Assembly (NCBI RefSeq): GCF_004339015.1 | Contig: NZ_SMFQ01000005.1 | Coordinates: forward strand, 186,001 to 250,000 | Reading direction: 5' to 3' | Length of the DNA stretch: 64,000 nucleotides | Source: Cocleimonas flava | GTDB lineage: Bacteria; Pseudomonadota; Gammaproteobacteria; Thiotrichales; Thiotrichaceae | Part shown: in pieces, positions 61,804-63,959 of the stretch | Layout: each line of letters opens with the position of its first letter | Position numbering within the stretch: position 1 is the stretch's first letter | Made by a program: the position numbers and the translations under genes | Notes under the pieces: model-generated | Told to the model about the DNA's origin: nothing | Databases searched by the model: none | The model's input: the letters and a program-made list of their open reading frames with translations, nothing else

Positions 61804-62415
61804 ATGAGTGCTTTTTATCAACAAGCTAAATTTTTACAAAGTGCTTCTAGCGTAAATACACTACCTCCTGAATTTGGTAATGAAGTTGCTTTTGCAGGAC
61901 GCTCAAACTCCGGAAAGTCGAGCACTTTAAACAAACTTTGCCAACAAAAAAGTCTTGCACGTACAAGTAAAACACCAGGGCGTACTCAGTTAATCAATTT
62001 TTTCGGATTACCAGGAGACAAATTTCTAGTAGACCTGCCAGGATATGGATATGCAAAAGTGCCAGAAAAAGTCAAAATACAGTGGCAGCAATTCATAGAA
62101 ATATACTTAACCCAGCGCTCACCTTTAGCGGGTCTAGTGATTATGATGGATATAAGAAGACCCATGCTAGAAAACGACATGAATATGTTGGATTGGGCGA
62201 ATTCTAGAAATTTACCCGTCCATGTTGTCTTAAACAAATCTGATAAGCTAAAACATGGACAAGCTAAAAGTGCGCTTTTGAAGACACAGCAACAACTAAA
62301 ACAAATTAATCCTATCTATACAGTTCAAATTTTTTCTGCGCTAAAAGGGGTAGGAGTAGATGAGCTAAAAAAGAAATTAAATATCTGGTTTGAGAACGAA
62401 CCTGATTGCCAATAA
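61804..62415 (+). CDS. engB: ribosome biogenesis GTPase EngB (YihA/YsxC)
   Basis: GTPase needed for 50S assembly. It has 203 residues from the ATG at 61804; the longer frame to 61651 would cross the divergent promoter region. Motifs are GRSNSGKSSTLNKL (G1), TPGRTQLINFF (G2), DLPGYGYAK (G3) and NKSDKLKHG (G4). In E. coli and Pseudomonas the region just beyond it holds a small RNA gene, as appears to be the case here. Confidence 0.95.
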   Translation: MSAFYQQAKFLQSASSVNTLPPEFGNEVAFAGRSNSGKSSTLNKLCQQKSLARTSKTPGRTQLINFFGLPGDKFLVDLPGYGYAKVPEKVKIQWQQFIEIYLTQRSPLAGLVIMMDIRRPMLENDMNMLDWANSRNLPVHVVLNKSDKLKHGQAKSALLKTQQQLKQINPIYTVQIFSALKGVGVDELKKKLNIWFENEPDCQ

Positions 62416-62464
62416 CAGATACATATAAAAAGAATTAAGAATAAAAACCGGACAGTTAAAAAGC

Positions 62465-62610
62465 CATAAAAAAACCCCGTGCAGTAGGGGGCTACCGCCG
62501 GGGTCAAAATAACAGGTCTGGATTGGGGACACCAAACCTGTGTCCGCAAGGAAAATAAAGAACACCGGGCTTAAGTGTTCATTGTTTTTACTTTCCCTTG
62601 CTTGCGGATA
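62465..62610 (-). ncRNA. candidate structured small RNA at the Spot 42/ErsA-like position
   Basis: No ORF. On the minus strand, in order: (1) a long hairpin with CCGCAAG (62601-62607) paired to CTTGCGG (62544-62550), a mid stem, and a perfect GAACAC/GTGTTC tip (62575-62580 with 62560-62565); (2) ACAGGT/ACCTGT with an inner TTGG/CCAA; (3) a terminator ACCCCG/CGGGGT (62499-62504 with 62474-62479) with inner GTAG/CTAC, followed by seven U. It converges on engB as spf does in E. coli. It could instead be the 3' end of the HtrA-family transcript; the promoter could not be fixed. Confidence 0.55.
62468..62504 (-). terminator. terminator of the candidate small RNA
   Basis: GC-rich hairpin with seven-U tract on the minus strand. 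Its core, GCCCCCTACT followed by GCACGGGG and T7, resembles the intergenic repeat family in a form that makes a good terminator. Confidence 0.85.
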
Positions 62611-62780
62611 AACACAGATAACTGAATATGTATCAAATTAACTGCATGTATCTATAAAACTACAAATTCAAACTTCGTTCAACATCAAACTGATGAAGCT
62701 TATAATTACAAGGATAGCTGGCAAATGCATAATCTGCAAGTTTTGACTAAGATTTAGTTATACTATTTACCATCTTTTAT
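62611..62780. other. gap candidate small RNA - HtrA-family gene
   Basis: AT-rich, no ORF. Likely contains the upstream region of the candidate small RNA or the 3' part of the HtrA-family transcript. No convincing promoter pair was found. Confidence 0.35.
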
Positions 62781-63959
62781 TTAATTATCAACTTCAAAAG
62801 AGCCCCAAGGGCTAGCATTTTCGATCTCTGGCTTACTTTCTACCACTGGCTTTCTGCCGATCTCACGATATTTTCCGGCACTTACCTGCCCTACTTCAGC
62901 AACACATTTCTTAATCAATCCATTACGGAAATATTCCATTTGAACCTTGGAACCCATACGCAAATTTCCAATAATACTTTTCAAGTTAGAACTATTAGTC
63001 ACAGTGGTGCCATTAATACGAGTAATTATATCCCCTTCCTGTATTCCTGCTTTATCAGCTGGGGAAAGCGAAACAACGCCAGAAATTAATGCTCCCTGAC
63101 CATCAGGTAAATTAAAGGCTTTTACTAGCGCAGGTCTTATATCCTGAATTTCAATACCTAGCTGCCCTCTCTCCACACGACCATTTTCAACCAATTGGTC
63201 AGTAATATTAATGATCATATCTGCAGGGATGGCAAAACCTATTCCGACATTGCCACCAGATTTACCACCAAGAATAGCGGTATTTATGCCGATTAACTCG
63301 CCACGAAGATTAACTAATGCACCACCCGAATTCCCAGGATTGATTGGCGCATCTGTTTGAATAAAATCTTCATAATCTTCGATACCTAAACCTGTTCTAC
63401 CTAGCGCACTTACGATACCAGACGTAACTGACTGCCCCAATCCATAGGGGTTTCCAATAGCAACGACAAAATCGCCAACACGCGAGGGTTTGCCGGTTGC
63501 CACTACCATCGCTGTTAGTCTATCAGGTTGAATTTGTATAACAGCGACATCAGCCTTCAGGTCTTTACCGATGAGTTGAGCATAAAACTGACGCTTATCT
63601 TTAAGTGTAACGATGATTTTATCTGCATTTTCAATAACATGTGCATTTGTAACCACATAGCCATTGTCCGCATCAATAATGATACCTGAACCTGTTCCTA
63701 TGGGTTTACCCGGTTGAGTGGGGACATTTTTACCGAAAAAATGACGGTACACAGGATCCTTTACAGGTGTTCCTGACGAGCCATTCTCTGTAGATATATT
63801 TACAACTGCTGGGGTAATCCTCTCTAACATATCTGCTAAAGAAGGCAGCGCCTGACCATTTACTTCTACAGGTAACTTGGCAGAAGCAGTGTTTAAGCAT
63901 CCCAAAAGTATTAAAGTAGTTGTAAAAAATAGTGAAGCAACTTTGTTCAAAAACATCAT
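62781..63959 (-). CDS. HtrA-family serine protease with a single PDZ domain (DegS/AlgW-like length)
   Basis: Periplasmic protease. It has 392 residues: signal peptide with LILLGC (a possible lipobox, Cys21) and alternative cleavage near ASA-K, then the trypsin-like domain with His107 (VVTNAHVIE), Asp137 (KADVAVIQI) and Ser211 (NPGNSGGALVN), and one PDZ domain at about 265-355. DegP/DegQ normally have two PDZ domains; the length is closer to DegS or AlgW, which activate sigma-E. The tail (about 365-392) is Glu/Pro-rich. Its start region lies at the window edge but is complete; ATG 63959 or 63956. Confidence 0.92.
   Translation of the reverse strand: MMFLNKVASLFFTTTLILLGCLNTASAKLPVEVNGQALPSLADMLERITPAVVNISTENGSSGTPVKDPVYRHFFGKNVPTQPGKPIGTGSGIIIDADNGYVVTNAHVIENADKIIVTLKDKRQFYAQLIGKDLKADVAVIQIQPDRLTAMVVATGKPSRVGDFVVAIGNPYGLGQSVTSGIVSALGRTGLGIEDYEDFIQTDAPINPGNSGGALVNLRGELIGINTAILGGKSGGNVGIGFAIPADMIINITDQLVENGRVERGQLGIEIQDIRPALVKAFNLPDGQGALISGVVSLSPADKAGIQEGDIITRINGTTVTNSSNLKSIIGNLRMGSKVQMEYFRNGLIKKCVAEVGQVSAGKYREIGRKPVVESKPEIENASPWGSFEVDN

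Follow-up and report, generated by a model that had tools for sequence, protein, structure and literature searches.

The 64,000-nucleotide stretch of the Cocleimonas flava genome analysed here (the window) very probably carries a genuine small RNA (sRNA) gene. We read it as a divergent Thiotrichaceae member of an old family of sRNAs with C-rich loops, whose genes in many Gammaproteobacteria stand between polA and engB. To this family we also assign sX13, ErsA and the RNAs matching the anti-hemB model. The RNA has a defined and covarying structure, is conserved as a single copy per genome, and is linked to RNAs of other families by covariance-model kinship and by a shared locus; we infer that it is transcribed, base-pairs in trans and acts as a repressor. 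It seems to be part of an RNA family widespread in bacteria, of which the few studied members bear separate names. In our best reading, the Thiotrichaceae RNA is distinguished within this family by the replacement of polA by htrA, by the loss of the anti-Shine-Dalgarno hairpin and by the lack of a conserved sigmaE promoter.

There is good support for an sRNA gene with three hairpins that converges on engB (Table 1). The minus strand from 62615 to 62465 folds at -61.8 kcal/mol, compared with -37.3 +/- 4.2 kcal/mol for dinucleotide shuffles (z -5.77), and none of 200 shuffles was equally stable. The plus strand too forms a stable fold (-54.3 kcal/mol, z -4.0), but a U tract following a G+C-rich stem is found on the minus strand only. 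A simple terminator scan missed the terminator at 62505..62473 and reported only the inner part of hairpin 1; hairpin 3 aligns with the terminator of the class-wide family described below (models R2 and R3). The original prediction placed three ordered minus-strand hairpins, the last a terminator, within 62465-62610; the fold and the U7 tract agree with this order, and the interval agrees with the conserved core. It also reported a 365-bp gap after engB with an HtrA-family gene in place of polA. Measured from the engB stop (62415) to the htrA stop (62781, minus strand), the gap is indeed 365 bp, and htrA does occupy polA's place. No hairpin with a CUCCCU loop (the anti-Shine-Dalgarno hairpin) is present in the fold of the window RNA or in the Thiotrichaceae alignment.

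Table 1. Features of the sRNA locus and its neighbours (window coordinates).
Feature	Position	Strand	Remarks
engB (YihA/YsxC GTPase)	61804..62415	+	Convergent neighbour of the sRNA gene
sRNA gene, conserved core	62468..62609	-	From fold, alignment and covariance models; 5' end may reach further upstream, to about 62704
Hairpin 1	62543..62608	-	Long interrupted stem UCCGCA...UGCGGA plus inner stem; loop UAAGCCC (62573..62567)
Hairpin 2	62512..62541	-	10-bp stem; loop UGUCCCCAAU (62531..62522)
Hairpin 3, intrinsic terminator	62468..62505	-	Stem 62505..62473, C-rich apex, U7 at 62474..62468
Alternative -10-like element TATAGA	62651..62656	-	Within the genus-conserved TGTAGTYTTATAG block, 7 of 11 genus loci
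Candidate promoter TTGCAG-17-TATCCT	62711..62739	-	Predicted RNA start near 62704; resemblance only
HtrA/DegQ-type protease gene	62781..63959	-	Same strand as the sRNA, 5' of the sRNA gene; occupies polA's place

A BLAST comparison with 39 genomes showed that the core is kept in the genus and in most of the family. R1, a covariance model of the Thiotrichaceae RNAs, finds one strong copy per genome (E below 1e-24) in 60 of the 63 genomes of the host's order, all from one family; among the other three, G005 gives a weak match only, and G042 and G058 give none. Named relatives with the RNA are Cocleimonas, Thiothrix and Leucothrix. A pattern scan of named genomes returned 48 records, a few of them MAGs with broader or unusual labels (e.g. 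Aquificaceae) and the others labelled Cocleimonas, Leucothrix, Thiothrix, Thiolinea, Thiofilum or Thiotrichaceae. In the family alignment, RNAalifold and pair counting revealed double changes at 17 of 26 base pairs, a level reached by none of 500 shuffles, and 93.7% of the paired cells do pair, compared with 29-50% when partners are slid. Hairpin 1 (helices 1-3) contributes double changes at 13 of its 16 pairs; in hairpin 2 (helix 4) 99.6% of the cells are paired, with double changes at four of ten pairs. Covariation in relatives, named in the original prediction as a check, is borne out by these double changes. The loop cores AAGCCC and UCCCCAAUCCA are invariant in all 23 aligned copies. This conservation bears on whether the interval might be a cis element, namely a two-way terminator that keeps apart the transcripts arriving from engB and htrA and does not act as an sRNA. 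Both strands do fold and both neighbours converge on the interval, but termination needs neither invariant loop cores nor a covarying 66-nt hairpin 1, and the RNA and engB are co-oriented in three genomes; we regard this explanation as highly improbable.

The neighbourhood is also stable in the family. Among 23 Thiotrichaceae loci, engB adjoins the RNA in 20, htrA in 20 and both in 19; in loci without engB or htrA, the neighbour is missing from the available DNA stretch. E. coli-type polA found no match in two Thiotrichaceae engB loci (L089 and L090).

Outside Thiotrichaceae, R1 matched 36 of 366 genomes (E up to 0.01). In the 27 of these loci that were retrieved, engB was present in 20, cytochrome c4 alone in two and neither in five, and the hairpins bore loops such as UCCUCCCU, UCCCCAA and CCCCCC. 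When 20 of them were scanned with Rfam, two passed the anti-hemB threshold, and at this place several also scored for sX13 and ErsA without reaching the threshold. The engB flanks of the class were also surveyed without bias. We located engB in 137 of the 158 class genomes, which nearly all represent different families, and its flanks were read in 130, seven partial or weakly matching cases being excluded. A crude count of hairpins with CCC loops was rejected for its lack of specificity in G+C-rich DNA (30 of 129 flanks on the native strand and 11 on the opposite strand, with about 10 given by shuffles). An ordered descriptor (a terminator preceded by two CCC-loop hairpins, in flanks of at least 200 nt) and covariance models were used instead. 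On the strand convergent with engB, this descriptor fits 25 of 129 flanks, compared with five of 5160 shuffles; three more flanks fit on the other strand.

Model R2 was built from 26 RNAs of other families, 16 obtained with the descriptor and ten first found with R1. The window RNA is its only match in the 64 kb, and all 22 other Thiotrichaceae loci supplied were also matched. At E up to 0.01, R2 has matches in 65 of the 130 engB loci and none in that of E. coli. The retrieved DNA includes polA at 48 of the 130 loci; among the 65 R2-positive loci, 41 have it. Searched genome-wide (E up to 0.001), it gives 99 matches in 87 of the 158 class genomes: 62 follow engB within 2 kb in convergent orientation, three follow it on the same strand and none lie upstream, the rest being elsewhere or on another contig (25) or in genomes where engB was not found (nine). 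With the 19 training genomes excluded, the R2 RNA is downstream of engB in 41 of 68 matched genomes. The same-strand arrangement was seen in L129 (G037), L209 (G154) and L124 (G147).

A further covariance model, R3, comprises 73 RNAs from 65 loci of other gammaproteobacterial families and excludes Thiotrichaceae, sX13 and ErsA. Its class alignment shows double changes at all 22 pairs, a result obtained in none of 500 shuffles. In a search of 866 kb, including 726 kb of the host chromosome, R3 picks up the window RNA with a full-length match spanning model positions 1-101 (E 1.1e-7), and its best match outside such loci has an E of 0.02. This kinship test is not fully independent, because ten of the 26 rows of the alignment A2 used in training R2 and R3 were first found with the Thiotrichaceae model R1. 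The window RNA shares the place of the class-wide family, just downstream of engB and convergent with it. It differs by having htrA on the far side, where the family often has polA, and by lacking the hairpin with the CUCCCU loop.

We also compared the window RNA with named RNA families. At Rfam thresholds, only four tRNAs are reached in the whole window, and a search of 62200..62900 that admitted matches with E up to 10 showed none to Spot 42, ErsA or sX13, which agrees with the original statement that the sequence is not recognisably Spot 42 or ErsA. Eight weak Rfam matches (LhrC, NsiR1, ar14, Betaproteobacteria toxic sRNA, anti-hemB and others, E up to 10) were set aside as being at chance level for the window. 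Among 369 genomes, Rfam cut-offs are exceeded by ErsA in one and by sX13 in three, and polA adjoins both RNAs. The sX13 RNA of Xanthomonadaceae (RF02232) resembles the window RNA in its three stem-loops, in its own terminator and, in part, in its C-rich apical loops. It adjoins polA and is 70 kb from engB in G035, whereas the window RNA adjoins engB and htrA. The sX13 loops carry 4C, 4C and 5C; those of the window RNA are UAAGCCC, UGUCCCCAAU and a C5 apex, with at least four C in two of the three, and the first loop is UAAGCCC where sX13 has CCCC. While the sX13 Rfam model (gathering score 50) does not match the window RNA, R2 finds three sX13 at E of about 5e-8, and R3 finds them (L240-L242) at E 3e-7 to 1.1e-6.

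ErsA of Pseudomonas (Pseudomon-1, RF01719) has an engB-side locus, C-rich loops and a terminator, all as in the window RNA, its locus being described as the polA-engB region (PMC8575079). The ErsA Rfam model (gathering score 50) has no match in the host genome at E 0.001; R2 finds ErsA at E 2e-4 over part of the model, and R3 finds it (L220) at E 6.7e-6 in 866 kb. The anti-hemB RNA (Burkholderia RNA 7, RF02837) has CUCCCU, UCCCC and C-rich terminator loops, as in the class family at engB. Its model exceeds the cut-off in eight of 158 class genomes, four of them at engB, and gives the window RNA 14.4 bits against a cut-off of 49.5. Alpha-r7 and other C-rich alphaproteobacterial sRNAs are described as having a polA locus, three stem-loops and C-rich motifs (PMC3771888); ar14/ar7 scores here were weak only. 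Rfam lists sX13, ErsA and anti-hemB as three families and joins them in no clan.

Unrelated sRNAs also carry C-rich loops, with Staphylococcus and Helicobacter named as examples (PMC3771888), and the anti-hemB model weakly matches five of 14 control genomes outside the class, none over the cut-off, so that its weak matches are unspecific. Three-hairpin sRNAs with such loops could thus have arisen repeatedly, and the likeness of the window RNA to ErsA, sX13 and the class family would then be superficial. What makes such independent origins very unlikely is that the RNAs share a place beside engB and cytochrome c4 and the order of their elements, and that full-length model matches run both ways, from R1 to 36 outside genomes and from R2 and R3 to Thiotrichaceae. 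Common descent with the class family is the reading that we retain.

Spot 42 has three hairpins. It occupies in E. coli the same gene neighbourhood (polA-spf-engB; Rfam RF00021) as the engB-side window RNA, and has also been described between polA and engB in Vibrionaceae and Erwinia. ErsA has been termed a functional orthologue of Spot 42 in a review (PMC8395346). The window RNA might on these grounds be a Spot 42 ortholog regulating carbon metabolism. With R3 filters off, the best match in the 6-kb E. coli locus is indeed spf, whose score of 16.3 bits (E 0.003 for a search space of 9 kb) lies below the chance level, as spurious R3 matches reach 21 bits in 726 kb of the host chromosome. With default filters and E up to 10, neither R2 nor R3 finds spf; in the R3 alignment Spot 42 lacks the C-rich loops, and the Rfam Spot 42 model itself found nothing here at E up to 10. 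Orthology with a role in carbon metabolism is accordingly improbable, and kinship of the window RNA with Spot 42 is only suggestive. The likeness to the Spot 42 and ErsA loci proposed in the original prediction has therefore fared unevenly: the link to ErsA now exceeds mere position, given its R3 match, while that to Spot 42 stays at the level of suggestion.

Promoters set the class-wide RNAs apart from those of Thiotrichaceae. A sigmaE-type pattern (GAACT-N16..19-TC[ATG][ATG]) lies upstream of 41 of 66 class RNAs, compared with 52 of 3300 shuffles, usually 45-65 nt ahead of the first hairpin in the model. The 66 were taken from 71 R2 matches (E up to 0.01); the two Thiotrichaceae loci, L125, and the additional copy in L113 and that in L120 were omitted. 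Thiotrichaceae show no enrichment of the pattern, with four occurrences in 41 upstream stretches, some genomes being counted twice, where 1.7 are expected; a sigmaE promoter for these RNAs finds no support. ErsA is reported to depend on sigma22, the Pseudomonas homolog of sigmaE (PMC8395346, PMC5819304). A TTGCAG-N17-TATCC block is found in eight of 11 genus loci with a varying spacer, and may be an ordinary promoter of the RNA in the host's genus.

Alternatively, the htrA mRNA might end in this structure, which would then be a 3'-UTR with its terminator, perhaps processed, and no independent gene. The RNA does follow htrA in the same orientation, and a promoter/terminator scan found no terminator between them on that strand. 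We consider this explanation unlikely: in other families the RNA follows polA and not htrA and usually has its own sigmaE-type promoter, the loops are conserved beyond the needs of a terminator, and the promoter-like block is kept upstream in the genus. An independent sRNA gene remains our preferred interpretation.

With respect to mechanism, the transcript would run toward engB and stop at its own terminator. The loops AAGCCC, UCCCCAAUCC and CCCCCU would be the likely base-pairing seeds, because loop sequences are fixed while stems covary. In sX13, C-rich loops repress mRNAs with G-rich motifs near the start, without Hfq (PMC3771888), and ErsA acts on some of its targets with Hfq and on others without it (PMC8575079, PMC8395346, PMC5819304). 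By analogy with sX13, the window RNA would pair with G-rich translation-initiation regions and block translation, and it probably represses mRNAs with such starts. Loop complementarity showed no excess at 649 translation starts, GGGG occurring in 33, compared with 33 in shuffled and 48 in coding controls; this is a weak target test, the starts being picked by a simple rule from 790 kb of the 4.49-Mb genome (18%). The second loop reached a count of 34 at -14 kcal/mol, which exceeds that of four of five shuffled loops and lies below the coding control (54). Two candidate targets were rejected: a gene that we take from its sequence to be dacB-like, where a 9-nt complement at the start is close to chance expectation, and htrA, where a 10-nt complement inside the gene occurs in the host genome only and not in relatives. 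At hfq, which is an sX13 target, GGGG was present at the start in none of the 30 relatives' loci read. While hfq is present in 60 of 63 family genomes, it has no match in the host genome (G000); as hflX, its neighbour in a relative, likewise finds nothing there, an assembly gap is likelier than loss of hfq.

The sX13 paper had already remarked on the polA locus, three stem-loops and C-rich motifs of Spot 42 and alpha-r7, proposed divergent evolution with retained structure, and in 2013 asked whether the polA locus of other bacteria encodes such sRNAs (PMC3771888). That question can now be answered from 158 class genomes: RNAs of such build are found at polA/engB in dozens of families. A search covering mainly open-access literature, and few subscription papers, found none that unites ErsA, sX13 and anti-hemB, and none on the Thiotrichaceae RNA. 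We regard this RNA as novel both for its variant build and for the support that it lends to the family, its function being what we infer from its relatives. The family offers a natural series for studying how the loops of a single sRNA gene persist through changes of neighbour, promoter and regulon. The Thiotrichaceae RNA illustrates this cleanly, with polA, one hairpin and the sigmaE promoter all lost. More tentatively, and with less likelihood than not in our judgement, an ancestral polA-engB sRNA with C-rich loops and a sigmaE promoter may have existed near the root of Gammaproteobacteria, Burkholderiales included, and given rise to ErsA, sX13, the anti-hemB-type RNAs, the Thiotrichaceae RNA and even Spot 42. 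If so, one polA-engB sRNA would have been rewired from envelope stress to other regulons, namely carbon metabolism in Enterobacteria, with the Thiotrichaceae copy standing next to the htrA protease gene.

Copy number also varies. The host genome has a second, weak R1 match at G000:C3:905300-905393 (E 0.013). Two sRNA copies each are present in L120, L146, L165, L113 and L212. Genome G324 carries five tandem anti-hemB-like RNAs (L081, 1542-2264), and genome G232 four tandem C-rich sRNA copies between engB and polA (L221/L244, 1090-1826 and 1500-2236).
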